Assembly: GCA_012512705.1 (NCBI GenBank)
Contig: JAAZDR010000241.1
Location: 1-14,743, forward strand
Source: Bacillota bacterium
Lineage (GTDB): Bacteria > Bacillota > Dethiobacteria > DTU022 > JAAZDR01
Length of the DNA: 14,743 nt
Reading direction: 5' to 3'
The position numbers were made by a program, and so were the translations under genes. Below, one piece after another: positions 350 to 14,743 of the stretch (its first letter is position 1; every line of letters begins with the position of its first letter). The notes beneath the pieces are model-generated. The model had not been told where the DNA came from, ran no database searches, and saw nothing but the letters and a program-made list of their open reading frames with translations.

Positions 350-1309
350 CTACTCCTTCACAACTCCGGCAGCCTGCTTAATTGCTTCCTTTGCCTCCTG
401 CATAAAAGATTCGACAACTTCGGCTGCTGTAATGATCCTATCGATCGGGGCGAGGTTCTGTCCGGCATAGGCAAAGCCTTCCTGCAGATCTCCATCAAAC
501 ACAGCAATTTTATTGCGGTTTCCGCTTCTTAAGGCGATAATCTGTTCCTGGGAAAGTTCCTTTTCCCCTGCCCCAAGATATTTCTTTACAAATCCAGAAT
601 TCAAGACGCGCAGGAGATGGCCTAAACCGCGGCCAAAGACAACGGTGTCTGTCTCTTTCGCCTTTACAAGTGCTTCCTTGAAACGAGGGTGAGCGCAGCA
701 TTCCTTGGTAGCCATAAAACGCGTTCCCACCTGTACACCAGCAGCGCCGAGGCATAGCGCCGCGGCAAGGCCTTTGCCGTCGACGATCCCCCCGGCAGCG
801 ACAACAGGTTGGCTCAGGCGGGGAACAATGCTCGAAAGCAGGGTTAAAGTGGTTAGCTCAAGGGGACTGTTATGCCCCCCTGCCTCAAAACCTTCGGCAA
901 TGATAATATCTGCCCCCGCCTCCGCTACTTTGACAGCGTGATAGGAGGAAGCAACGACAGCCATAACCGTTATCCCGCTCTCCTTTAAGGGGGCAATATA
1001 GGGGAGCGGATTGCCGCCGCCCAGGGAGACAGCCTTCACTTTTTCCGCTTTCATCAATTTTATAAAGCTTTCCATATCTGTTCGCCGGCCGATAGGAATA
1101 TTAACACCAAAAGGTTTAGAGGTCAACGACCTGATCCTGGCGATCTCCTCTTTGATCTCCGGGATCTCCAGACCTCCGGCACCGATCTGGCCAAAGGCAC
1201 CGGCTTCAGAGACAGCGGCTGCTAACTCTGCTGTCCCGACAAGAGCCATACCCCCTAAAATTATCGGGTATTTAATTTGTAGTATATCAGATAACTTTCG
1301 TTGCTCCAA
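350..1309 (-). CDS. FabK/nitronate monooxygenase-like FMN oxidoreductase
   Basis: A 319-residue TIM-barrel flavoprotein of the 2-nitropropane dioxygenase (NMO)/FabK family. The visible family signatures are the N-terminal YPIILGGMA segment, AEGFEAGGHNS at about 139-147 (H146 matches the catalytic/FMN-near histidine of the family), the phosphate-binding AAGGI at 171-175, and GAAGVQVGTRFMATKE at about 188-203. Known members either reduce enoyl-ACP with NAD(P)H (FabK) or oxidise nitronates; the sequence alone does not separate these. In an anaerobe and beside CoA-dependent genes, an NAD(P)H-dependent enoyl reductase or flavin-transfer role fits better than oxygenation, but that is inference. The start codon is TTG, chosen because AAGGAGGAGGA lies directly in front of it (about 1314-1324). 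It follows etfA after 57 bases, and its stop is one base before the EamA gene. Confidence 0.9.
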   Translation of the reverse strand: MEQRKLSDILQIKYPIILGGMALVGTAELAAAVSEAGAFGQIGAGGLEIPEIKEEIARIRSLTSKPFGVNIPIGRRTDMESFIKLMKAEKVKAVSLGGGNPLPYIAPLKESGITVMAVVASSYHAVKVAEAGADIIIAEGFEAGGHNSPLELTTLTLLSSIVPRLSQPVVAAGGIVDGKGLAAALCLGAAGVQVGTRFMATKECCAHPRFKEALVKAKETDTVVFGRGLGHLLRVLNSGFVKKYLGAGEKELSQEQIIALRSGNRNKIAVFDGDLQEGFAYAGQNLAPIDRIITAAEVVESFMQEAKEAIKQAAGVVKE

Positions 1310-1366
1310 CTTATCCTCCTCCTTATTCGCACCGCAAGGACAAAGCTTTCTACTTATTATTTTATT

Positions 1367-2353
1367 TTAATTATCCCCGCCGGGGGAAAGCAACTCGATT
1401 AAAGGGGGTAGGATTTTCGTCAAATCCTCTACTACACCGAAATGAGCATGTTTGAAAATGTTTGCTTTAGGATCTTTATTAATGGCAATAAAAAGCTCCG
1501 GATTCTGCACACCGCTGAGGTGCAGCTGGTCCCCAGAGATCCCCACCGCCAGGTAAAGCTTTGGCCGTACATTGCGGCCGCTCTGTCCGATCATCTTCTC
1601 TTCCTCGACCCACCCTTCATCAACAGGCGGACGGGTCGCGCCAACAGCGGCGTTAAGGGCATGGGCCAGCTTTTCGATCAGCTGCCAGTTTTCTGCATTG
1701 CCCACTCCTGCACCCCCGGCAACGATCACCTCCGCTTCCTCAAGACCTCCTGCGCTGCCTTTTTCTGTTTTAAATTCTACGATTTTTGTTGCCGGCTCTG
1801 CCGGCGGAGAAAAATCAATTTCGATAATCTTTCCCTGACGTTCATAATCGGGTTCAGGAATAGTAAAGACACCAGGGGCAACGGTTGCCATCTGCGGGTT
1901 CCCTTGTGAGCGAAAGACGCAGTGACCGCCGAATGCCGGGACAAGCTGTTTTAAGACCTTGTGTTCGTCAATTTCAAAAGCGACACAATGAGCGGTTAAC
2001 CCGGCACCTATGCGGGCCGCTGTTGCGGCAGCGAGATCTTTACCGCCCTGGGTTGCGCCAAAGAGAAAAATCTCCGGCCTGTAGCGCAAAATCATTTTTT
2101 CTACAAGCGGGATATAAAGTTCGCCGCGGTAGTGATAAAGCTTTGCGTGATCAGCGACGAGGACATTATCAGCACCACAAGCGATCAGCTCAAGGGCAAG
2201 GGGTTGGAGGTTATGGCCGATGAGGATCGCACTGAGCCCTACATCTAACCTGTCAGCGAGGCGTCGCCCTTCCCCCAGGAGTTCCAACGACACCGGTAAA
2301 AGTTTGCCTTCCACCGCCTGGGCAAACACCCAGAGGCCGTTTTCTACGCTCAT
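1367..2353 (-). CDS. etfA: Electron transfer flavoprotein, alpha subunit
   Basis: A 328-residue EtfA. The N-terminal two thirds form the Etf domain shared with the beta subunit. The C-terminal FAD domain is clear: GATRPPVDEGW at 238-248, GQSG at 256-259, GISG at 271-274, H278, and AINKDPKANIF at about 290-300. These are the residues that bind FAD in known EtfA proteins. With EtfB it carries electrons between the neighbouring acyl-CoA dehydrogenase and another partner. There is no N-terminal ferredoxin domain such as the one in CarE of the caffeyl-CoA reductase complex. It overlaps etfB by four bases (ATGA), with an AGGGTGG ribosome site, which points to translational coupling and equal subunit supply. 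The sequence does not settle whether the complex is bifurcating (NADH/ferredoxin) or a simple carrier. Confidence 0.96.
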   Translation of the reverse strand: MSVENGLWVFAQAVEGKLLPVSLELLGEGRRLADRLDVGLSAILIGHNLQPLALELIACGADNVLVADHAKLYHYRGELYIPLVEKMILRYRPEIFLFGATQGGKDLAAATAARIGAGLTAHCVAFEIDEHKVLKQLVPAFGGHCVFRSQGNPQMATVAPGVFTIPEPDYERQGKIIEIDFSPPAEPATKIVEFKTEKGSAGGLEEAEVIVAGGAGVGNAENWQLIEKLAHALNAAVGATRPPVDEGWVEEEKMIGQSGRNVRPKLYLAVGISGDQLHLSGVQNPELFIAINKDPKANIFKHAHFGVVEDLTKILPPLIELLSPGGDN

Positions 2354-3159
2354 AGGATACCACCCTGTCTGTATTTCTTAATTTTTTGTGCGATCTCCTT
2401 GGCGATCTCTTGTGGGCCCCCTTCGAGGATCTCTGCCCCTTGAGCCTCAGGTAAGGGCAGGAAGTCGAACATCTGTATGCCGGAGCCTTTCAGTCCCAGC
2501 TGGTCGGAAGAAAGGCCAAGATCTGCAGAGGACCACGTCCATATTTTTTTCTTTCTCGCTTTAATAGCCTCGGACAGCCTTAATCCACGGGGTTTATTGA
2601 TCTCACGCCTTACTGTGACCAAAAGGGGCAACTTCCCTTCACAGAGGGCGAAGCCGCCGTCAGTGACGATTTCTGCATAGAGTTTCCCCCCTTTGTAATC
2701 GAGGAAACGGACAGCGCTGAAGTGGTTAATGCCCAGAAACTGTGCTATCTGCGGCCCCACCTGGCCGGTGCTGCCGTAATAACTTACCGCACCGCAGAAG
2801 ATGAGGCCAGGCAGACCGAGTTTCTTTAAAGCAGCAGCAAGGGCCCTGGCGGTAGCCAAGGAGTCAGCACCACCAAAGGCCCTGTCCGAGAGAAATACGG
2901 CTTCATCAGCCCCTAAAGCGAGGGCTTCCTGGATGTTTTCCCTCGCTCCAGGGGAGCCCATGCAGACCACAATAACACTGCCGCCATGGGCCTCTTTCAA
3001 TCTGACCGCTGCTTCCAAGGCATGACGATCAAGAGGGCTAATTATCCGGGGGATTCCTTCCTTTTGGATAGTTTTTGTTTGGGGGTTAATCGTTACCTTG
3101 TGCCACTGTTTAGGGTCGGGTACGGATTTGAGACAGACAGCGATCTTCAAACTCTTCAC
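2350..3159 (-). CDS. etfB: Electron transfer flavoprotein, beta subunit
   Basis: EtfB, 269 residues from a GTG start at 3159. I prefer this GTG to the TTG 24 bases upstream because AAAAGGGGG (3166-3174) sits at proper spacing before the GTG, and the protein then begins MKSLKIAVCLKSVPD, as the family does. Family marks are the N-terminal KIAVCLKSVPD nucleotide-domain strand, SPLDRHALEAA, and the signature near the C-terminus with EGKLPLLVTVRREINKPRG followed by the basic AIKARKKK stretch. It pairs with EtfA and holds the second nucleotide (AMP or FAD). The GTG lies 13 bases after the stop of the acyl-CoA dehydrogenase gene, and the 3' end overlaps etfA by four bases. The order dehydrogenase-etfB-etfA is common for dedicated dehydrogenase/Etf complexes. 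Confidence 0.95.
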   Translation of the reverse strand: MKSLKIAVCLKSVPDPKQWHKVTINPQTKTIQKEGIPRIISPLDRHALEAAVRLKEAHGGSVIVVCMGSPGARENIQEALALGADEAVFLSDRAFGGADSLATARALAAALKKLGLPGLIFCGAVSYYGSTGQVGPQIAQFLGINHFSAVRFLDYKGGKLYAEIVTDGGFALCEGKLPLLVTVRREINKPRGLRLSEAIKARKKKIWTWSSADLGLSSDQLGLKGSGIQMFDFLPLPEAQGAEILEGGPQEIAKEIAQKIKKYRQGGIL

Positions 3160-3172
3160 GATAATCCCCCTT

Positions 3173-4318
3173 TTAGTCGGCAAATTTTTTGAGGGCGGTT
3201 TTGCCCATGATTACTTTCATGATGTCAGAGGTTCCCGCAGAAGGGATCGAGATTAAGGCATCGCGCAGGTAGCGCTGCACAGGGTATTCTTCCATGTAGC
3301 CGTAAGCACCGTGGATGTCACAGGCGTGTTTAGCAACCCTGACTGCAGCTTCGCAACTGAAGTACTTGGCGATCGCAAATTCAACGTCACAGCGTTCACC
3401 GCGATCTTTCATCGCTGCAGCGCGGTAGCCGAGAAGGCGGCTTGCTTCCAAGTCAGCATACATTTCTGCAATTTTAAACTGGACTGACTGCAATTTGCTG
3501 ATCGGTCTTCCGCCGAGAACGCGCTGATTGGCAAATTTCACAGCAGCTTCCAAAGAAGCCTGCAAAAGTCCGAGGGCGACACCAGTCATCCCAGCACGAC
3601 CTACGTCACCAATAGCACTCAGGGCAACTTTGAGCCCGGCACCAGGCTCTCCGAGCAGGTTTTCCTGGGGGATACGGCAGTTGTTGAAGATTATTTCGCC
3701 GGTATCGCTGCCCCTGAGACCCATTTTCTTTTCGGTACGGCCAGGGCGGCAGCCCTCCATCGTTTTTTCAGCGATAAAGGTGTTAAAAGTTTTCTCATCG
3801 TCGGCCATCTTGGCAAGAACGACGACGATATCACTGACTTTGGCGTTGGTGATAAATACCTTCCGGCCGTTGAGGGTGAAATCGCTGCCGTCTTTTTGGG
3901 CAACGGTTTCGATCCCGCTGGGATCAGAGCCCCCGGTAGCCTCAGTAACAGCTATAGTAGCCAGTTTTTCCCCTGTGGCGAGAGGGGGAAGGTATCTTTG
4001 TTTCTGCTCCTCTGTACCAAAGACAACGATCGGCTCGATCCCCAGGCCGAAGACCTGGAGCATCATCGCTGCTGCTGCAGATACCCGTGCTATCTCTTCA
4101 ATGATTATTAGACGTGCCGTATGGCCTAGTCCGAGGCCCCCGTATGCTTCGGGGATCGTTACAGCAAGGAAGTCGCGTGCAGCCATCTCCTCGATCAGTT
4201 CGCGGGGGAGTTCATCGTTGGCTTCGATCTCTTCTGCCCGCGGGGCAAGTACATCGGAAGCGAATTCACGGGCGGCTTTACGAAGCATCTCCTGGTCTTC
4301 ACTAAATTTAAAATCCAT
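3173..4318 (-). CDS. Acyl-CoA dehydrogenase family flavoprotein with unusual active site
   Basis: A 381-residue protein of full family length. The FAD and acyl-CoA frame is intact: TEATGGSD at 125-132, FITN at 156-159, MGLRGSDTGEIIFNNCRIP at 199-217, the FAD-contacting NQR-LGG-I--LQ-VQFKIAEM block at about 264-286, and HGAYGYMEEYPVQRYLRDA at about 336-354. The family normally oxidises acyl-CoA to 2-enoyl-CoA, or runs in reverse, passing electrons to Etf; the etfBA genes follow directly. The catalytic Glu of the usual YEGT motif is replaced: the sequence reads IPSAGTSD, with A361 in its place. The alternative Glu position of isovaleryl-CoA dehydrogenase, in the helix around 236-243 (IGDVGRAG), also appears to hold Gly rather than Glu. 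The substrate is unknown. The ATG start has AAAGGAGG nine bases upstream. Confidence 0.93.
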   Translation of the reverse strand: MDFKFSEDQEMLRKAAREFASDVLAPRAEEIEANDELPRELIEEMAARDFLAVTIPEAYGGLGLGHTARLIIIEEIARVSAAAAMMLQVFGLGIEPIVVFGTEEQKQRYLPPLATGEKLATIAVTEATGGSDPSGIETVAQKDGSDFTLNGRKVFITNAKVSDIVVVLAKMADDEKTFNTFIAEKTMEGCRPGRTEKKMGLRGSDTGEIIFNNCRIPQENLLGEPGAGLKVALSAIGDVGRAGMTGVALGLLQASLEAAVKFANQRVLGGRPISKLQSVQFKIAEMYADLEASRLLGYRAAAMKDRGERCDVEFAIAKYFSCEAAVRVAKHACDIHGAYGYMEEYPVQRYLRDALISIPSAGTSDIMKVIMGKTALKKFAD

Positions 4319-4372
4319 GGTTCTGTTCCTCCTTTCTTCAAACCAAAATGAGGATGTTAAACTTCGCTGGGG

Positions 4373-5536
4373 TCAGTTGCTGGAGAGGACAGTATATTTT
4401 TTGATCAATTCTTCATCGAGTTCAACGCCGAAACCTGGTTTCTGGGGCAGTGGGAGGCAGCCGTCTGCCGGATCGATCAGGAGCGGCTCGGTTATCCCTC
4501 CCTGGAATACCTCAGGAACGATTGCCGGCGGGTCATAGGGATATTCAAGGTGAGTGGTATTAGAAAGGGAAGCCGCGAGGTGCAGGGAAGCGATAAGTCC
4601 CACGCTCGGGATCCAGCTGTGCAGGTTGCAGAGTTTGTCATGGTTTTCAGCGATGGCAGCGATCTTTTTCACCTGGCTCATTCCGGCGGCCATGGTGCAG
4701 TTTGGCTGGAGGATATCATAGCAGTCCCTTTCGATAAGCATGGCAAATTCGGGAACATCACGGTTGATTTCGCCGCCTGCTATGGGGAGGTCAACCTCTG
4801 CCGCTAATTTGGCAAGGAGCTTGTAATCGTAGCGGTAGAGAGGTTCCTCCAGCCAAGATACGTCGTATTCTTCTAAGGCTTTCGCTGTCTGATAGGCCCG
4901 TTCGTACGACCAGATTGAGGTTTCGCCGACAATACCGCTGCGTTCCCTTGCTGTGCCCTGATTGGCATCGATCATGATCTGCAGCTTGTCGCCGACAGCT
5001 TTGCGGATCGTCTCGATCAGGCTGAGGTCATCTTTGATTGTATCGCTACAGAAGCGTACCTTAACTGCTTTAAATCCCTGCTCAACGAGCATCTGGGCAT
5101 CTTCATAGCGCTGTTCGTTGGGTTTTAATTCTCCCCAGGCAGCGTAGACGGGCATTTTATCCCTGAAGCCGCCGAGTATTTTGTATACGGGCTGGTTGGA
5201 GGCTTTACCGATGATATCCCAAAGGGCGTTTTCGACCACCCAGGGGCGGGTAACCACACGGGCGACGTCTCTGAGTTTCCAAATGATCTTTTCAACCATA
5301 AAGGGATTGTCGTTGAGAATGGCGGGCTCAATAAGATGCTTAATCGTTTCGATAAATACCGGAGCGAGGCCAAAAGGAGCCTCTGCCGTGGCGATCCCAG
5401 TGATACCTTCATCTGTATATACCCGGACTAAGAAAATTCCCTGTTTTTTCTCTTCGCGGCCCGGGTACCATGTCGGTTTAAAGGGTTTGCTATAGGGCAG
5501 TTGTATGAATTCCGCTTTTATACCCGTTATTTTCAC
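4373..5536 (-). CDS. Enolase-superfamily enzyme, mandelate racemase/muconate lactonizing subgroup
   Basis: A 387-residue protein with the N-terminal capping domain (about 1-125) and a TIM-barrel. Active-site positions read from the sequence are K159-V-R161 on the second barrel strand, metal ligands D190 (IDAN), E230 (WLEEP) and E256 (AGGE), D274 (DILQPN), H306 (NLHSW) and E331 (LEYPYD). The Asp274/His306 dyad and the terminal Glu place it with mandelate racemase and acid-sugar dehydratases rather than with MLE or enolase. These enzymes abstract the proton alpha to a carboxylate, giving epimerisation or dehydration. The second Lys of the usual KxK is Arg, so His306 is the more likely base. The substrate is unknown; inside a CoA-catabolic operon it may prepare a hydroxy or unsaturated acid. 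The GTG start overlaps the upstream stop (GTGA) and has a GGAGGGAG ribosome site. Confidence 0.92.
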   Translation of the reverse strand: MKITGIKAEFIQLPYSKPFKPTWYPGREEKKQGIFLVRVYTDEGITGIATAEAPFGLAPVFIETIKHLIEPAILNDNPFMVEKIIWKLRDVARVVTRPWVVENALWDIIGKASNQPVYKILGGFRDKMPVYAAWGELKPNEQRYEDAQMLVEQGFKAVKVRFCSDTIKDDLSLIETIRKAVGDKLQIMIDANQGTARERSGIVGETSIWSYERAYQTAKALEEYDVSWLEEPLYRYDYKLLAKLAAEVDLPIAGGEINRDVPEFAMLIERDCYDILQPNCTMAAGMSQVKKIAAIAENHDKLCNLHSWIPSVGLIASLHLAASLSNTTHLEYPYDPPAIVPEVFQGGITEPLLIDPADGCLPLPQKPGFGVELDEELIKKYTVLSSN

Positions 5537-7713
5537 TTTTTACTCCCTCCTTGGAGAAGGAAAAGAGCATCCAGTACTTCTACACCTTTTCCTTTTTGGT
5601 AAACACGCAGTGGATTTATATCCACCTGTTTGAGCAGTTCTCTCTGTTCCCAGCCAAAGGCAGCGACCTTTTCAATGGCCTGGTAGAGGGCTTCCAGGTC
5701 ATAAGGTCCGGATCTGCGGGCGCCTTTGAGTATCTGGTAGGCCCTGCTGTTGCGCACCAGTTCTTCAGCTTCGCCTTTTCCCAGAGGAAGAAGGGCCAGA
5801 TTGACATCGTCTAAGATTTCGGTAAAGATGCCCCCGGAGCCGAATAAGAGAGTCGGTCCGAACTGGGGATCTCGGGTAAGGCCGATAATTACATCAAAAC
5901 CTTCTGGGGCCATCTTCTGCACTAAGACGCCCTCAATAGAGGCAGAGGGTTGTTTGGTTTTTGCTGCTTTAATGATCTCATGGTACGCACCCCTGACTTC
6001 TTCTGGGCTCTGCAGGTTGAGCTTCACACATCCAAGGTCGGTTTTATGCAGAATTTCCGCAGAGTCGACCTTCAGCGCAACTGGATAGCCGATTTCTTCT
6101 GCCGCAGCAACTGCTTCGGCTGCGCTCTGGGCGGCAGCTTCGCGGACACTGGCGATGCCCAGCTCCTGCAGTATTCTTTTGCCCTGTTTCTCGCCCAGGG
6201 TGTTGTAAGTGCTGCTGTAATCGCGCAAGAGCGCTCCTGCTTTCTGGAGAGCCTCTTTGCTCCCCGAAGAAGGAACGGTCGTGCTCTGCTTTTGACTGGC
6301 GAGCAGTTTTTCCTTCTGCGCGTTAAAATCAATCAGCTTTTTCACCGCAGCGAGCGCTTCTTCTGTCCCCAAAAGATAGGGGAGATCATCACTGTCTACC
6401 AGCGGCTGCATCACTTTCGGCTCATACGCTGTGGAATGATTGGAAAAGACAATAATCTGTTTTGGCAGCTCATCTTTTACCTTTAATACTGCCCTTACGA
6501 TTTTACTGTAGTGATCGATTGTGCTTGCACCGATCCCCTGGGGGGCGTCCTGCGACACGAGGAGCAGATCAACATTGTCGTCCCCAGCAAGGATGCGCAA
6601 ACAGCGGGCGTAGTCATCAGCATCAGCGGAGCCGAAATCAGCAACATCAAGGGGATTATTCACATGCAGGTAATCGGGGAGGATCTCCCTCAGGGTTGAA
6701 CGTGTCTCCTCTGTATATTCGGCGAGTTCCAAGTTAAAATCTTCAGCAAGGTCGGTAATCAGCGCTGACTGCCCTCCGGAGATGGCAATAAAGGCCGCTT
6801 TCTTGCCGTAGGCCTTCTTTGCTTTGACAAATAGAGTAACCGTCTGCGCCATCTCATCGAGGTTTTTGACCATGACAATCCCTGTCTTGCTGAAAGCGGC
6901 TTCAAAGACCTTGTATTCGCCAGCCATCGCCCCGGTATGGAACTGGGTAATTTTCCGACCTTTGGCCGAACGGCCGACTTTCAAGACGATTACCGGTTTC
7001 CCGGCGGCAAGCGCTTTTTCCGCGGCCTGCAAAAATTTTCTCCCGTCATCAACTCCTTCCATAAATACAGCGATCACTTTTGTTTGCGGATCATCTGCTA
7101 AGTAATGGAGATAGTCGCCGAGATCGAGCACGGCCTGGTTACCGGTAGAGATAACTTTGCTCAGGCCCAGGGATTTATAGGCCTGGGCAATGGCGATCAC
7201 CATCGAGCCGCTTTGCGCTAAAACAGCAACGCCTCCCTTCTTAACTCCCGGCGGGATCGAAGCACTATATAAACCGCTGTCGCCGCCTACATTCAGCAGA
7301 CCGAGGCTGTTTGGGCCACACATGGGGATCTTTTCTCTCTCGAGCAGCCCTTTGATCTGCTCCTGCATGACTTTACCCTCTTCGTTCAGTTCGGCAAAAC
7401 CGCCGGTTAAAATACAGACAGAGTTTACCTTCTTCTCGATACACTCTTCTAAAAGGGAGGGAATAAAGCGTGCCGGCACACCGATCGCTACTGCATCTAC
7501 ATCTGTAGGAATATCTTTAATGCTTGGATAGCATTTATAACCAAAAACTTCACTATATTTAGGATTAACAGGGTAGATTCCTCCACTATATCCCTGTGTT
7601 TTTAGATTAAAAAGAACATTGCGTGCCGGACCAACTTTTTCGGAAGCGCCAATTATCGCAATTGATTGTGGATCAAATAGAGACTTAAGATTTCTTTTCC
7701 AACCTTCACTCAT
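5533..7713 (-). CDS. Acyl-CoA synthetase, ADP-forming (fused alpha-beta)
   Basis: A 726-residue fusion of both parts of the ADP-forming acetyl/acyl-CoA synthetase family. Residues about 8-130 form the CoA-binding Rossmann domain (SIAIIGAS, YPVNPKY), and about 150-460 the succinyl-CoA-ligase-like domains, with the phosphorylated histidine at H259 in FHTGAMAGE. About 505-726 is the ATP-grasp domain (GYPVALKVDSAEILHKTDLGCV; DPQFGPTLLFGSGGIFTEILDD). The enzyme interconverts acyl-CoA + ADP + Pi and acid + CoA + ATP, in the cytoplasm. In fermenting organisms it usually conserves energy as ATP, but it can also activate an acid. Acyl specificity is not readable. It sits between the crotonase (30 bases upstream) and the enolase-superfamily gene (four-base overlap). 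The ATG start is preceded by GGGAGGATT. Confidence 0.94.
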   Translation of the reverse strand: MSEGWKRNLKSLFDPQSIAIIGASEKVGPARNVLFNLKTQGYSGGIYPVNPKYSEVFGYKCYPSIKDIPTDVDAVAIGVPARFIPSLLEECIEKKVNSVCILTGGFAELNEEGKVMQEQIKGLLEREKIPMCGPNSLGLLNVGGDSGLYSASIPPGVKKGGVAVLAQSGSMVIAIAQAYKSLGLSKVISTGNQAVLDLGDYLHYLADDPQTKVIAVFMEGVDDGRKFLQAAEKALAAGKPVIVLKVGRSAKGRKITQFHTGAMAGEYKVFEAAFSKTGIVMVKNLDEMAQTVTLFVKAKKAYGKKAAFIAISGGQSALITDLAEDFNLELAEYTEETRSTLREILPDYLHVNNPLDVADFGSADADDYARCLRILAGDDNVDLLLVSQDAPQGIGASTIDHYSKIVRAVLKVKDELPKQIIVFSNHSTAYEPKVMQPLVDSDDLPYLLGTEEALAAVKKLIDFNAQKEKLLASQKQSTTVPSSGSKEALQKAGALLRDYSSTYNTLGEKQGKRILQELGIASVREAAAQSAAEAVAAAEEIGYPVALKVDSAEILHKTDLGCVKLNLQSPEEVRGAYHEIIKAAKTKQPSASIEGVLVQKMAPEGFDVIIGLTRDPQFGPTLLFGSGGIFTEILDDVNLALLPLGKGEAEELVRNSRAYQILKGARRSGPYDLEALYQAIEKVAAFGWEQRELLKQVDINPLRVYQKGKGVEVLDALFLLQGGSKK

Positions 7714-7743
7714 CTCAAATCCTCCCGACCTTGTGTTAAATGC

Positions 7744-8553
7744 TTAATTGTCTTTTTTTGCGCTCGCCCACTGCATCGCTGCCTTAAGGCCTTTTTCTCT
7801 GACGATTTTGGCAAATTCCTCACTATCATCGGTATTGCTCAAACGGCAGAGGTTGAATATTTCACAACCATAATTGAATGTATCCAAAATTCCCTGCAGT
7901 TCATAAGTGCGGTTCACGGAATATTTAGTCAGCTGCAGCGGCTCAACGGGCATATCAGCTAGCTTCTGCGCCAACCCATAAGTAGCCTCCATCAGCTGAT
8001 CGTGCTCGACTACCTTGTTCACAATCCCCAGACGCTGTGCCTCATAGGCGTCAATGCTTTCCCCGGTATAGAGCAGCTCCCGCGCTTTTCTCATCCCCAC
8101 AGCCCAAGGTAAAATGGGAATCTGCACCATGTAGGAAAAGATAATCTCCGGCTCGCCAAAAACTGCCCTATCAGACGAGATCGCCAGATCGCAGAGGAGC
8201 ATCATCTCCAGCGCTCCGCCGAGACAATGACCATTTACAGCAACAATAATCGGTTTCGGGTAGTTCCAGACCCTAAGCCAGCGCTGCTTTTCCTGTTCCG
8301 TATCTAATCGCCTGGCTGCCACAGTCGTCTTCGGGTTCAAAATCGACTCTTTAATATCAAATCCCGCAGAAAAGGATTTTCCTGCCCCGGTGATTACCAG
8401 TACATGTACATCATCGTCTTCCTTTGTCTCTTCGAGAGCCAAATCCAGCTCCTGCAGCATTTTTACGTTAAAAGCGTTGCGGCTCTCCGGTCGATTAAAA
8501 GTAAGAGTTGCAATCTTACCTTCTTTGGTTAATATGATAGTTTCATACTTCAT
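7744..8553 (-). CDS. Enoyl-CoA hydratase/isomerase (crotonase) family protein
   Basis: A 269-residue crotonase-fold protein of typical length. Visible marks are the substrate-loop SFSAGFDI at about 60-67 (oxyanion-hole side), NGHCLGGALEMMLLCDLAI at about 107-125, and FGEPEI at about 132-137. E115 and E135 align with the two catalytic glutamates of classical 2-enoyl-CoA hydratase, so hydration of an enoyl-CoA or dehydration of a 3-hydroxyacyl-CoA is plausible. The usual GAGG segment after PEI is replaced by a hydrophobic YMVQIPILPWAVG stretch, which may reflect an unusual acyl group. Carnitinyl-CoA dehydratase-like and isomerase roles remain possible. The start has TAGGAGG ten bases upstream. 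It is separated from the symporter by a 143-base gap that holds an inverted-repeat structure. Confidence 0.92.
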   Translation of the reverse strand: MKYETIILTKEGKIATLTFNRPESRNAFNVKMLQELDLALEETKEDDDVHVLVITGAGKSFSAGFDIKESILNPKTTVAARRLDTEQEKQRWLRVWNYPKPIIVAVNGHCLGGALEMMLLCDLAISSDRAVFGEPEIIFSYMVQIPILPWAVGMRKARELLYTGESIDAYEAQRLGIVNKVVEHDQLMEATYGLAQKLADMPVEPLQLTKYSVNRTYELQGILDTFNYGCEIFNLCRLSNTDDSEEFAKIVREKGLKAAMQWASAKKDN

Positions 8554-8600
8554 AGCAATTAAGCCTCCTAATACAATATTATAAATTAAAAACAGACTAC

Positions 8601-8664
8601 AGGGGCGATTCCAGCTTCTGCCCTGGCGGTTTTTGCTCCGCTGCAGGCTTGCCAGATCGCCCCT
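8601..8664 (-). other. GC-rich inverted-repeat structure between symporter and crotonase genes
   Basis: The ends of this 64-base stretch are perfect 9-base inverted repeats (AGGGGCGAT and ATCGCCCCT on the transcribed strand). Inside, GCGG/CCGC closes an A-rich loop, and further short GCC/GGC pairing is possible, so the RNA would fold as a long irregular hairpin. About nine bases after the stem comes TTTTT, too far for a classical intrinsic terminator. It may be an intra-operon attenuator, a processing or stability element, or a small mobile repeat; the sequence alone does not decide. Confidence 0.5.
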
Positions 8665-8696
8665 AATAGCTGAGTGCTTACATACAAGGACCTTTA

Positions 8697-10088
8697 TTAA
8701 GCCCCAACTGGACTCTGCACCGATGGTTTTGTCGCCAAGCTAACGGCAACATAGACAATCAGGGAAGGTATCATACTAAAGATGTTCGGGTAAGGAACAG
8801 TAAACAATCCGAGGAAAGACGGGCTGGTAATGATAAAGAACACAGTCCCAGCAATAAAAGACCAAAAAGCACCTTGCTCTGTTGCTCTACTCCAGAAGAA
8901 ACCTCCCACTACAGGGACAAAACAGCCGGCAAGAAGAATTGAATAGGCAGTAACGAGCATACTAAAAATTGTCGGCATGCTTAAAGCCATTACTAGGCCA
9001 AAAATACCTACAACTGCAGTAGCAATATATGATACCTTGAGCAGCTGCTTTTCTGTAGCCGACGGATTGATGATCTTCTGATAGAAGTCCCGGTTAATAT
9101 GCGCTGTTACTGCAAGGAGCATACTGTCCGCTGTGGACATGATCGCGGCCAGAAGGGCAGCAAGCACGATAGCAGCGGCAAAAGGTGAAAGAGCATGCTG
9201 GATGATCTCCGGCATCGCTAGAGCGGGGTCGAGATCGGGCCACATGGCCTTGGCTGCCATACCAGTTATAACAGGGATGAAGGAAAGCGGGACAAGGATC
9301 ACCCCGGACAACCACGGCGCACCAACAGCAGTCTTCAAGTCTTTAGAAGCAAAAGTACGCTGGAAAGAGGCCTGTGATACAAAACCATAGAGCGCAGTGG
9401 GTGCTAAAATCATGATCCAATCTTCAAAGGAGAAAGGAATAGCTTGGAAATAGGAAGGGGTTAGTGCCGGAGCAGCGGCAAGCCCATCAAAGCCACCAAC
9501 AGTAGCCAGCGCGATCACACTAGCGATGATCACCCCAATACCGGCGATAATAACCTGAATGGCGTCAGTAATGATTACAGCCCAGAGACCGGAGAGGGTT
9601 GCATAGCCAACGAGAATAACCGTACCAATTATCGCTCCCCATTGCGACGGTATCCCAAGCATCTCAAGGATGCTTGCCGCAGCCATAATCTGCGCAGCAA
9701 AGATCCCGATATTGCCCAGAGCGCTGACGAGTGCAAAGGCAGCGCGAACCCTCTTCGATCCGTAGCGAAGATCAAGGAAATCAGGAATTGTATAGATATT
9801 ACCGAGGTTGTATGCACGGCGGGCTAAAAACGCACCGAAGAGAAAATAGGAGATTGCGCAGGCCAGCCCGTACCACACCCCGCCAATACCGTACAAGGCG
9901 CCGTATTCCGCACCACCTATGGCAAAACCGCCGCCAAAGTGGCTGGCAATATAGGAGCCGGTGATGAAAAAAAGTCCCATTTTACGGCCGGCAACAAGAA
10001 AATCCTCAGAATCCTTAATAAATCTACGACAATAAACACCGATGGCAAACATAAAAAGCATATAAACGGCCACTAAACCAACAATCAT
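8697..10088 (-). CDS. Sodium:solute symporter (SSS family)
   Basis: A 463-residue membrane protein with about 12-13 hydrophobic segments, usual for the solute:sodium symporter family (PutP/PanF-like, LeuT fold). Marks include the first helix from about residue 3, GSYIASHFGGGFAIGG at 44-59, LSGLWAVIITDAIQ at about 165-178, FQRTFASKD at 242-250, and MSTADSMLLAV at 317-327. S318, T319 and S322 of the last motif match the family sodium-site helix. It should import an organic acid, amino acid or similar solute with Na+ across the cytoplasmic membrane; the substrate is not determined. Its place as second gene of the operon suggests that it brings in the substrate degraded by the following enzymes. 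AGGAGG lies ten bases before the ATG. A two-codon ATGAAATGA minicistron lies between them and overlaps the start. Confidence 0.94.
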   Translation of the reverse strand: MIVGLVAVYMLFMFAIGVYCRRFIKDSEDFLVAGRKMGLFFITGSYIASHFGGGFAIGGAEYGALYGIGGVWYGLACAISYFLFGAFLARRAYNLGNIYTIPDFLDLRYGSKRVRAAFALVSALGNIGIFAAQIMAAASILEMLGIPSQWGAIIGTVILVGYATLSGLWAVIITDAIQVIIAGIGVIIASVIALATVGGFDGLAAAPALTPSYFQAIPFSFEDWIMILAPTALYGFVSQASFQRTFASKDLKTAVGAPWLSGVILVPLSFIPVITGMAAKAMWPDLDPALAMPEIIQHALSPFAAAIVLAALLAAIMSTADSMLLAVTAHINRDFYQKIINPSATEKQLLKVSYIATAVVGIFGLVMALSMPTIFSMLVTAYSILLAGCFVPVVGGFFWSRATEQGAFWSFIAGTVFFIITSPSFLGLFTVPYPNIFSMIPSLIVYVAVSLATKPSVQSPVGA

Positions 10089-12224: not shown

Positions 12225-12665
12225 CTAGATGTGATTTATTCCCAGCCCAACGACTTCGTGTTCGCAACCTTTAATCGGTGCGCCCATATGGCCATAGAGG
12301 GCAACAGCGATCCATTCACCGTCCCCAGTATCTCTCACATTTCGCGGGCCGCGAACGATAACGAAGCGCAGACCCACTGTGCGCAAAATAGTCCCCAGCT
12401 CCAGCTCTCCCCGGCAGATGCCATGAAAAGCCTCAATGCAGGCGTGGTAGAGAGCATGTTTTTGCCAATATTTCTTAGAGATGAGCCCTTCATTGATCGC
12501 TGCTGTTTCAATCGCTGCTACAATTTTTTTGAATTCCATGGAGCCGGCTTGTCCAATGCAAATTCTAAATTTATTCTGCTCTGCATTTTTCAGATAGCGG
12601 TCAAGATCTTCCCCTGAAGCCATAGCCAAAATCATGCTTGTCTTGCCGATCGTGGTGCAGTCCAT
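12225..12665 (-). CDS. hutP: HutP, histidine-responsive RNA-binding antiterminator
   Basis: 146 residues, about the length of Bacillus subtilis HutP and, from memory of that protein, clearly similar along the whole chain. Shared segments include GSMEFKKIVAAIETA (about 41-55), KHALYHACIEAFHG (69-82), LRTVGLRFVIVRG (94-106), EWIAVALYG and APIKGCEHEVVGLGINHI at the end. H70, H74 and H136 correspond to the histidines that bind Mg2+ and L-histidine in the known protein. HutP forms hexamers that, with histidine and Mg2+, bind repeated NAG triplets in the hut leader RNA and prevent the terminator from forming. A matching leader lies before hutH. Here hutP is downstream of that attenuator, unlike in Bacillus. 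It has the same 14-base ribosome-site block (CTAGGGGAGGAAGG) as hutH. Confidence 0.95.
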   Translation of the reverse strand: MDCTTIGKTSMILAMASGEDLDRYLKNAEQNKFRICIGQAGSMEFKKIVAAIETAAINEGLISKKYWQKHALYHACIEAFHGICRGELELGTILRTVGLRFVIVRGPRNVRDTGDGEWIAVALYGHMGAPIKGCEHEVVGLGINHI

Positions 12666-12777: not shown

Positions 12778-14331
12778 TTAAAGAGCAGTTAAATTAACCT
12801 TCTCCTCCACATGCTTAACCAGGCAGCCGCTGGAAATCAAGGAGGCCGCCTTTTCTAAATCAGGATAAAGAATACGATCTTCAGCTAGTGGAGGGATGTA
12901 GCGGCGAAGGTAAGACAGCGCTCGAGCACTTCCTATTCCAAGGTCTGATGAACCGTTAATCTCTATTGCCTGGGCTGCAACAAGCAGTTCTACTGCCAAA
13001 ATATAAGCGATGTTCTGCACTACCTGGCGCGCCTTTCGTGCCGCTGTCGTTCCCATGCTCACATGATCCTCCTGAGAGGCGGAACAAGAGATCGAATCAA
13101 CGCTTGCTGGATGGGCGTAGATCTTGTTTTCACTGGCAATAGAGGCCGCTGTATACTGGGCAATCATGAAGCCGGAGTTTAGGCCTCCTTGTCGTGCTAA
13201 AAAAGGAGGCAGCCCGCTTAAAGAGCTGTTCAGCATACGCTCCACACGCCGTTCGGATATGCTTCCGAGCTCTGCGACAGCCATGCAGAAAAAGTCCATT
13301 GCCTGGGATACAGGCTGGCCGTGGAAATTCCCACCGGAAAGGATCCGTTCCCCTTCTGGAAATACAAGGGGGTTATCGGTCGCAGAATTGATCTCAATAT
13401 CAATGACTGATTTTATATAACGAAGCGCATCCTTGGCCGCACCATGCACCTGCGGTATACAGCGTAAGCTATAGGCATCCTGAACCTTATGCTTGCGACC
13501 GATCCATGCGCTGCCTTGGAGCAGACTTTCGAGATTCTCCAGTGTCGCCTTGTGGCCAGGATGAGGGCGTGCTTCCCAAAGTTGTATATCAAATGGTTCG
13601 GGAAGCGCTTCCAGGGCCTCCAGCGTCAAGGCAGAAATAATATCTGCCGCCTTTAAAAGATTAAGGGCATCATGAACAGCGAGGGCAGCGAGAGCAGTCA
13701 TCACCTGCGTACCGTTAATTAGCGCCAGCCCCTCCTTCTCCTGCAGAGTGAGAGGTTCCAAACCCGCAGCATTGAGGGCAGCCGCCCCGTCCATACGCTT
13801 TCCTTTAAAAATTGCCTCACCGCGCCCGGTCATGACCAGGGCCATATGTGCAAGTGGAGCCAGATCCCCGCTTGCTCCCAAAGAGCCTTGAGCAGGGATC
13901 AGCGGATGAACTCCGCGGTTAAGCATCTTCAGAAGCATTTCAATAACCTTTGGCCGCACTCCGGAATAGCCGCGAGCGAGGGCATTAGCGCGCAAAATCA
14001 TGATCGCCCGCACCACCTCTTCATCAAGAGGTCTACCCACAGCAGTAGCATGGCTGGCAATCAGGTTGTTCTGCAGACGCAATAGATCCTCTTTGGGGAC
14101 AACAATCTCACTGAACTTACCAAACCCAGTATTTATACCATAAGCGGTCCGCCCCTCCCTCACAATCTTTTCAACTACTTTCCGTGAAGCCCTTACTCGT
14201 TCAACTGTTTCCTTGCTGATAAATGCATTTACTTTTCCCCGGGCAATTAGGGAGACTTGTGCAATAGTCATGGAGCGACCGTCAACCTCTAAGTAGTCAG
14301 CCCTTTTTACCTCCGGTTCCGGCAGATTCAT
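12778..14331 (-). CDS. hutH: Histidine ammonia-lyase
   Basis: 517 residues from the ATG at 14331, which has GGGGAGGAAGG upstream. An in-frame ATG at 14379 lies in the loop of the terminator hairpin and has no ribosome site, so it is rejected. The MIO-forming Ala-Ser-Gly triad is at 153-155 within GSLGASGDLAPLAHMAL, the signature of the HAL/PAL family. Y64 in AYGINTGFG, TDNPLVF, HGQPVSQAMDF and QEDHVSMGT are further active-site segments. The enzyme deaminates L-histidine to urocanate and ammonia in the cytoplasm, the first step of histidine use. It is the first gene of the hut unit, directly behind the HutP-type attenuator, so its expression should rise with histidine. hutU and hutI are not in the window. 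Confidence 0.97.
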   Translation of the reverse strand: MNLPEPEVKRADYLEVDGRSMTIAQVSLIARGKVNAFISKETVERVRASRKVVEKIVREGRTAYGINTGFGKFSEIVVPKEDLLRLQNNLIASHATAVGRPLDEEVVRAIMILRANALARGYSGVRPKVIEMLLKMLNRGVHPLIPAQGSLGASGDLAPLAHMALVMTGRGEAIFKGKRMDGAAALNAAGLEPLTLQEKEGLALINGTQVMTALAALAVHDALNLLKAADIISALTLEALEALPEPFDIQLWEARPHPGHKATLENLESLLQGSAWIGRKHKVQDAYSLRCIPQVHGAAKDALRYIKSVIDIEINSATDNPLVFPEGERILSGGNFHGQPVSQAMDFFCMAVAELGSISERRVERMLNSSLSGLPPFLARQGGLNSGFMIAQYTAASIASENKIYAHPASVDSISCSASQEDHVSMGTTAARKARQVVQNIAYILAVELLVAAQAIEINGSSDLGIGSARALSYLRRYIPPLAEDRILYPDLEKAASLISSGCLVKHVEEKVNLTAL

Positions 14332-14347
14332 AATCCTTCCTCCCCTA

Positions 14348-14399
14348 GAAAAATAAAAGGGGCTTTTGTGATCAAGCATTTGATCACAGAGCCCCTCTT
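14348..14399 (-). terminator. Intrinsic terminator in the hutH leader (attenuator)
   Basis: On the minus strand, positions 14399-14380 pair with 14375-14355 around the four-base loop ATGC. Nine base pairs (TGTGATCAA with TTGATCACA) and ten more (AAGAGGGGCT with AGCCCCTTTT, one G-U) are separated by a 1x2 internal loop. The stem runs into TTTTATTTTT at 14358-14349. It ends 17 bases before the hutH start, so most transcripts would stop unless it is prevented from folding. The CCCCT of its 3' arm could alternatively pair with AGGGG of the hutH ribosome site. Confidence 0.9.
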
Positions 14400-14413
14400 A
14401 TACCTATCAACTC
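14397..14413 (-). promoter_or_regulatory. HutP-binding NAG repeat
   Basis: On the transcribed strand the sequence reads GAG-TTGA-TAG-GTAT-AAG: three NAG triplets with 4-base spacers, a 7-base period. Three UAG triplets with 4-base spacers are the known Bacillus HutP RNA site. The last triplet (14397-14399) is also the base of the terminator stem, so a bound HutP would compete directly with it. A further TAG stands at 14426-14428, one base out of phase. Confidence 0.7.
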
Positions 14414-14743
14414 TTGAGCGAAAAACTATTAAATTACCGGATGCCCGGCAAAACTAATTTCTTCTATATAAAAATTACTACCGGTGTCTATCATCTTGGT
14501 ATAATATATTCGCCCAAAAATTTAATTTTCCTGCTTTAAAAATTATCATTAAATTTTAATATATCTGAACAATTGGAAGAACTAACAATCAACCGACCCG
14601 GAAAGTCAATTCGACTAATTAAAACAAAACATGCTACTACATGCTAAAAGCATTATTTATATTTAAATAATAAAGATCAAATATAATGATGGTTAGGTGT
14701 AAAAATTCCTATCGGGAAAGAAATCCTCCATCTACAGGAAGAA
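14414..14743. other. Gene-free AT-rich region upstream of hutH
   Basis: These 330 bases hold the 5' part of the hutH leader and presumably its promoter. No reading frame with a ribosome site was found. No convincing promoter could be fixed: TTGACT (14604-14609, minus strand) lacks a good -10, and the TATTAT near 14501 lacks a -35. A direct repeat ACATGCTA (14629-14636 and 14639-14646) and an AT-rich hairpin (14653-14670, TTATTTA/TAAATAA) are candidate protein-binding sites. The last 35-50 bases are open in one frame on each strand and might be the tip of a neighbouring gene. Confidence 0.5.
14434..14451 (-). other. Small upstream hairpin in the hut leader
   Basis: CCGG-GCAT-CCGG, flanked by a G-U and two A-T pairs, gives a seven-pair stem with a GCAT loop, about 20 bases before the NAG repeat. 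It could organise the leader RNA for HutP or be incidental. Confidence 0.35.

Follow-up and report, generated by a model that had tools for sequence, protein, structure and literature searches.

A predicted HutP-dependent attenuator ahead of hutH in a Bacillota bacterium, and a stem around the NAG triplets that covaries in relatives

The hutH leader and its features

The DNA analysed here, referred to as the window, is the whole 14,743 nucleotides (nt) of contig JAAZDR010000241.1 from a Bacillota bacterium, in which a histidine ammonia-lyase gene, hutH, is followed on the minus strand by hutP. HutP is a textbook antiterminator, and our subject is the leader ahead of hutH, in which three phased NAG triplets run into an intrinsic terminator. 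The features are listed below in the direction of transcription; P1 is a short stem predicted to form from the bases that flank the triplets, and R2 is a family model built without the window copy.

14416 to 14419, minus strand: predicted 5' arm (GCUC) of the antiterminator stem P1, pairing with GGGC at 14394-14391
14397 to 14413, minus strand: three phased triplets, GAG-TTGA-TAG-GTAT-AAG, the predicted HutP binding site (read directly from the sequence; the phase is common in hutH leaders of relatives)
14391 to 14394, minus strand: predicted 3' arm (GGGC) of P1, also within the 5' arm of the terminator (folding and R2)
14355 to 14399, minus strand: intrinsic terminator stem-loop of 19 pairs, -27.0 kcal/mol, whose base takes in the last triplet, AAG (local folding)
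14349 to 14358, minus strand: T-tract TTTTATTTTT, the first four T of which pair inside the stem base (direct sequence and folding)
14334 to 14347, minus strand: ribosome-binding region TAGGGGAGGAAGGA ahead of the hutH ATG at 14331-14329 (direct sequence)
12778 to 14331, minus strand: hutH, histidine ammonia-lyase (TIGR01225, 682 bits with a cut-off of 539, and PF00221; the scan began one codon ahead of the ATG, at 14334)
12225 to 12665, minus strand: hutP, 146 amino acids, downstream of the attenuator (PF09021, 106 bits; NF002838, 179.3 bits with a cut-off of 155; PDB HutP 1wmq, E 6e-42)

On the minus strand the triplets are GAG (14413-14411), TAG (14406-14404) and AAG (14399-14397), and the spacers TTGA and GTAT are exactly 4 nt long. 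Local folding places the first pair of the terminator stem at the AAG triplet, and the 151-nt leader is far more stable when folded than shuffled versions of it (z -5.46, 0/200). A simple terminator scan of the window did not list the hairpin before hutH; folding was used instead, and the presence of a terminator in all leaders was judged by our own folding-based rule. The original prediction, that GAG-N4-TAG-N4-AAG runs into a 19-pair terminator with a T-tract, is exact by sequence and folding, on the minus strand, which it did not state. The hutP gene that it placed in the same unit is the next gene after hutH, and its product scores above the NCBIfam HutP equivalog cut-off. It was silent on P1 and on the position of hutP downstream of the terminator. 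The start of hutH is best read as the ATG at 14331-14329, preceded by GGAGGAAGG; a longer open reading frame start at 14379 falls inside the hairpin. The gene order is leader-hutH-hutP, with hutP behind the terminator, and the order hutH-hutP is also common among relatives from the same taxonomic order. The HALYH, RG and EHE motifs of the window HutP agree with the B. subtilis chain, and residues H70, H74, E135, H136 and E137, which we take to have metal- and histidine-binding roles, are invariant in 11/11 aligned HutPs, B. subtilis included.

Conservation of triplets and terminator before hutH

Loci with a hut-type HutP were drawn from 71 genomes of the window's order, a phylum sample of 299 genomes and 80 named loci (L denotes fetched loci and G genomes, G000 being the window's genome). 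The window HutP alone as query gave no relative in the named genomes; a query with an alignment (A1) retrieved 397, and the top 80 were retained. After removal of identical sequences and of any shorter than 100 nt, the hutP-bearing loci yielded 81 distinct hutH upstream regions. N4-phased triplets stand directly ahead of a terminator in 56/81 of these regions, and when spacers of 4-6 nt are allowed triplets and terminator occur together in 69/81. The stem begins 2-3 nt inside the last triplet in 39 of the 56 leaders. The original prediction had described a HutP-type attenuator whose last triplet overlaps the base of the terminator, and had proposed aligning hutH leaders of relatives for a 7-nt AG period; the phase is kept before the terminator in those 56 leaders, and this conservation, with the frequent overlap, supports the predicted attenuator.

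The bases that precede AG are variable. All three triplets are UAG in just 9/60 aligned cores. The first base of triplet 1 is T in 35 cores, G in 13, A in 6 and C in 6; that of triplet 2 is T in 44, G in 11 and C in 5; and that of triplet 3 is G in 25, T in 16, C in 10 and A in 9. Bacillales sites also use GAG and CAG. Because so few cores are all UAG, degenerate first bases are the norm of HutP-type sites and are not special to the window. The degenerate triplets that the original prediction singled out are present, then, but they do not make a special variant. Its contrast with a uniform, U-rich Bacillus site was overstated: at locus L175, whose HutP is 99% identical to that of B. subtilis, the site UAG-AUCU-UAG-ACGA-UAG is indeed uniform but its spacers are not U-rich.

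These data also bear on the explanation that the terminator is under other control or none and that the phased triplets of the window are there by chance. A NAG cluster at an arbitrary position of the 266-nt leader is no rarity (424/5000 shuffles), and the left-out model R2 fails to single out the window copy in its genome. Placement is another matter, since a cluster that ends no more than 3 nt from the stem arises in only 11/5000 shuffles of the part before the stem. The window has six NAG-N4-NAG-N4-NAG clusters on its two strands, and just the one before hutH directly abuts a terminator by the folding rule. Furthermore, hutP is the next gene, and the triplet-terminator arrangement before hutH is conserved in relatives. 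Nor does an Rfam family such as a T-box or a riboswitch match the window or its leader near its gathering score: Rfam 15 gave 0 matches to the whole window up to E 1, and for the leader alone up to E 10 only rli60, mir-365, mir-548 and MIR1120, unrelated families all far below their gathering scores. We regard a terminator under other control or none, with chance triplets, as very improbable.

A covarying stem that encloses the triplets

In most leaders the bases 5' of the first triplet are complementary to those 3' of the last, for example GCUC-A-[triplets]-G-GAGC, or with arms GCCC/GGGC, UACUC/GAGUA and CUUGCCU/AGGCAAG. Each of the three inner P1 pairs is formed in at least 59/60 cores. The base 5' of triplet 1 is A in 59/60 cores and the base 3' of triplet 3 is a purine in 60/60. 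The covariation score over the 60 cores is 0.407, compared with 0.239 +- 0.021 for shuffles (0/500) and at most 0.175 for slid registers; 5/6 P1 pairs vary on both sides, a value that shuffles attain in 14/500. From this 60-core set (A2) L074 and L158 had been removed for a poor or misplaced P1, and five Bacillales cores had been added by a pattern of P1-like flanks, so that its covariation leans slightly towards P1 through row choice. A second test, in which arms were picked blind to their sequence, has neither bias: of 87 clusters, the 81 with a terminator that starts no more than 2 nt past the last triplet were kept, an overlapping cluster was dropped to leave 80, and these gave 57 distinct cores and 35 distinct arm pairs. 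Here 153/175 cells pair, re-paired arms have a mean of 131.5 and 0/10,000 attain the observed value; pairing in other registers is 31-54%.

Because its 3' arm is also the 5' arm of the terminator, P1 and the terminator would be mutually exclusive, and the covariation suggests that P1 is an antiterminator that HutP closes. The median P1 (57 cores) is -5.0 kcal/mol and the median terminator -20.1 kcal/mol. Since P1 is this weak, it would win only with HutP holding the loop or by being transcribed first. The stem is not peculiar to the bacterial group of the window, because the B. subtilis-like L175 has the same layout, AGCCC-A-UAG-N4-UAG-N4-UAG-G-GGGCU.

PMC12456014 cites a 2004 paper with 'hut antiterminator RNA' in its title, which may mean a stem such as P1. 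The antiterminator idea for the hut RNA predates this analysis; what is new here is the covariation of the flanking bases as a putative short stem whose 3' arm is the 5' arm of the terminator. The accounts of HutP that we found, in partly available sources, concern one species and binding to the terminator, and a covarying P1 in many lineages offers a concrete model of the antiterminator.

If the P1 model holds, the element shares with the BglG/LicT antiterminators a protein-stabilised hairpin that excludes a terminator. It differs in that the P1 loop would carry phased triplets for a hexamer, whereas the BglG/LicT type is, in the excerpts consulted, a bulged stem; the BglG/LicT protein is unrelated to HutP. 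TRAP, like HutP, is a ring-like oligomer that reads repeated NAG triplets, but in trp leaders its repeats are far more numerous and more closely spaced, and its effect is to favour termination.

Several variants of the element were observed. P1 is retained with a 5-nt spacer in L051, L053, L054, L056, L110 and L179, and in L075 and L078 with a third triplet that is TTG in phase, or GAG at 6 nt. Tandem attenuators, with two successive units before hutH, occur in L070, L073/L279, L084/L275, L087 and L277 (Syntrophaceticus, DTU068 and related metagenome-assembled genomes), and L277 has a third unit ahead of its MttB gene. In Fictibacillus (L116, L118, L123, L125, L129) four phased NAG triplets lie just 5' of the approximate hutP start, a possible autoregulatory site. 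In L117, L119 and L286 (the same site as L157) P1 and triplets lie between hutP and hutH with no terminator by the folding rule, and HutP may act another way there.

Co-occurrence with HutP

A match to R1, the family model that includes the window copy, was found at E<=1e-3 in 27/34 genomes of the order with a hut-type HutP (87-107 bits) and in 3/37 without (our own count), many of the leaders in those 27 genomes being training rows of R1. The three element-positive genomes without a hut-type HutP (G053, G060 and G052) are 86, 73 and 66% complete. In a phylum sample of 398 genomes R1 matches 18 at E<=0.01, where about 4 would be expected by chance. Ten of the 18 have a strong HutP match in the 299-genome sample, as do G012 and G442 in other scans; in G815 and G827 a hutP gene lies close to the site. 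The matches in G766 and G775 are probably fortuitous, with no terminator or no triplets, and the other two genomes are G774 and G795. Weak R1 matches in L247-L252, L284 and L285 that lack a terminator or the triplets were likewise dismissed as chance.

The window genome also encodes, on another contig (G000:C50), an 'A-type' Pfam HutP paralog that lacks the motifs conserved in HutP. It was rejected as the regulator: the one A-type protein that was compared lacks HALYH and EHE, and genomes of the order that have only the A-type give no R1 match at E<=1e-3, except G053. An A-type Pfam HutP at L001 4-420, on the minus strand, has no histidine or metal motifs; the type is frequent in the order.

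The window leader as a probable attenuator

We consider it probable that the window leader is a histidine-responsive, HutP-dependent transcription attenuator with a P1 antiterminator. When histidine is scarce, RNA polymerase would halt at the 19-pair terminator before it reaches hutH. When histidine and a divalent metal are available, a hexamer of HutP would bind the three NAG triplets as they emerge, prevent the last of them from pairing in the terminator base and join the flanking bases as P1, the 3' arm of which would then be withheld from the terminator. With the terminator blocked, polymerase would read on into hutH, hutP and the genes that follow. Because hutP is itself one of the genes past the terminator, HutP should increase its own production. 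What is observed is the sequence, its joint conservation with hutP and hutH, and P1 covariation among relatives. From these observations we infer that HutP binds, that it needs histidine and metal to do so, in what order the steps occur, and that P1 acts in the window's own weak copy.

As in the hut operon of B. subtilis, the window has three NAG triplets, 4 nt apart, that lead straight into a terminator upstream of hutH; at L175 the triplets are also flanked by P1 arms, AGCCC/GGGCU. The window element differs from the B. subtilis description in gene order, since it lies before hutH with hutP downstream and the B. subtilis element lies between hutP and hutH, and in the absence of a second NAG cluster. 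Its triplets are GAG, TAG and AAG, as against the uniform UAG of L175.

Several results weigh against our reading. An excerpt from PMC7430163 describes in B. subtilis a further three NAG triplets, clustered about 20 nt downstream, and the window leader has no such cluster; L175 has CAG, CAG and TAG there by eye. The window terminator holds one NAG, leaving aside the GAG that overlaps the last triplet, in a count made for the window only and stopped at the first TTTT past base 20. Twelve of the 81 hutH upstream regions have no triplet-terminator unit under either spacing, and among the regions that fail the rule there are degenerate or wider-spaced triplets, or no terminator. Five of the 15 strong-HutP genomes of the 299-genome sample (G000, G176, G331, G172 and G284) have no listed R1 match at E<=0.01, and some of the five may lie outside the 398-genome sample. 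Among the sites before non-hut genes described below, the fetched stretches of L243, L246, L276, L277 and L253 hold no hutP. Furthermore, the window P1 has just 4 bp, including one G-U, and reaches only -2.5 kcal/mol with the triplets held unpaired, half the median, and its loop has one extra base on either side compared with the B. subtilis type. The window terminator far outweighs this stem, so P1 could act there only with HutP bound or if formed first. R2 (59 cores, without the window copy), which is the fair test, gives the window copy 9.8 bits (E 0.72), third in the window after two unrelated places, and in the window genome it reports four matches of 13.4-18.7 bits, the window copy not among them; the copy thus scores below matches that are probably due to chance.

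Limited to the 409-nt upstream region, R2 finds the window copy as its sole match (E 0.02), and the alignment pairs the arms GCUC/GGGC. R1, with the window copy in its training, places the copy top of its own genome (E 0.026); a large-scale R1 run with stricter filters listed no match for this genome at E<=0.01. A second candidate in the window genome (G000:C97:2188-2224; E 0.13 with R1 and 0.34 with R2) was rejected, having no terminator by the folding rule. The window copy is the weakest case, and the argument for it rests on the phased triplets, their placement, hutP and hutH, and less on P1.

Another explanation is antitermination by HutP without P1, the usual account for B. subtilis. The hexamer would clamp onto the triplets together with the base of the terminator and keep the terminator open, and the flank complementarity in the window would be incidental. 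An excerpt from PMC7430163 states that in B. subtilis HutP prevents the terminator from forming, and the frequent start of the stem inside the last triplet would fit such a grip, as would a P1 of 4 bp. It does not account for the strong covariation of the flanking arms over the 60 cores and over the 35 arm pairs picked blind, nor for the retention of P1 between hutP and hutH in L117, L119 and L157/L286, leaders in which the folding rule finds no terminator. We therefore think antitermination without P1 rather unlikely and prefer an attenuator with P1.

Genes behind hutP

Behind hutP lie an FTCD_C gene and genes for a pyridoxal phosphate enzyme, a sodium symporter, a crotonase and an acyl-coenzyme A (CoA)-ligase (nucleoside diphosphate-forming) domain protein, followed by an enolase-superfamily gene, an acyl-CoA dehydrogenase and both electron-transfer flavoprotein subunits (EtfA/B). 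The crotonase, ligase-domain, dehydrogenase and EtfA/B genes lie within 350-10088 (minus strand), and the top NCBIfam match of the acyl-CoA dehydrogenase is acryloyl-CoA reductase, below cut-off. Beyond hutH and hutP, the stretches of relatives that were compared share only FTCD_C, one symporter (L119) and weak ligase and dehydrogenase matches of 28-30%. No urocanase was found in the window's genome, which is 87% complete, and urocanate in this organism may be reduced as a CoA thioester. The apparent lack of urocanase makes this hut operon a metabolic lead in its own right.

Sites before non-hut genes

Triplets with P1 also occur ahead of peptide-type ATP-binding cassette (ABC) transporters with SBP_bac_5 (L243 and L246; in L276 and L278 behind a ferredoxin-domain gene). 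The element precedes an MttB-family methyltransferase at L277 1687-1721, and at L287 859-893 it lies directly behind hutP, ahead of a corrinoid protein; methylated histidines may be the substrate at these two sites. Within L043 1662-8601 it stands before a HisC-like transaminase, which is followed by an acyl-CoA ligase, hutP, an indolepyruvate oxidoreductase and an MttB fragment; the same type of element lies before a HisC-like transaminase at L240 2087-2121, cut at the contig end. This gene set is possibly an oxidative histidine route. At L282 5663-5697 (minus strand) the element is ahead of a tryptophanase/tyrosine phenol-lyase-like gene and then a 45%-identical HutP that keeps HALYH and EHE, and at L242 the sequence ends 210 bases on, before any nameable gene. 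A hutP gene lies within the fetched stretch of L043, L278, L282 and L287, and also beside L046, a proximity that counts in favour of control by HutP. By the folding rule a terminator is present at L242, L243, L246, L276, L277, L278, L282 and L287, and not at L043 and L240, which have a hairpin and then an interrupted T-run.

A literature search found no paper on HutP and corrinoid proteins. On HutP in clostridial leaders it gave PMC4448311 alone, which in the portion available has HutP only in gene tables, and on HutP and Rfam it gave only that paper and one on snR30. In these partly available sources we found no link of the above uptake and breakdown routes to HutP. The most interesting result is, in our view, the family of P1-closed elements, which in the window has no Rfam 15 match at thresholds, together with its occurrence before non-hut genes. 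Tentatively, and with somewhat less than even confidence, we propose that P1-enclosed NAG clusters form a so far undescribed RNA family through which HutP acts across Bacillota, and that HutP is a histidine regulator wider than hut. Its other targets might be peptide-type ABC importers, the MttB and corrinoid proteins, which perhaps remove methyl groups from methylated histidines such as hercynine, a HisC-like transaminase paired with an indolepyruvate-type oxidoreductase as an oxidative histidine route, and a tryptophanase-like lyase; the window operon may route urocanate via a CoA thioester. A searchable RNA model makes HutP a regulon finder that points to routes of histidine uptake and breakdown.

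Two weaker sites have a poor P1 in the fixed register. The site at L046 is behind hutP and before an ABC permease, with no terminator by the folding rule, and that at L253, which has a terminator, is before an oligopeptide ABC ATPase.
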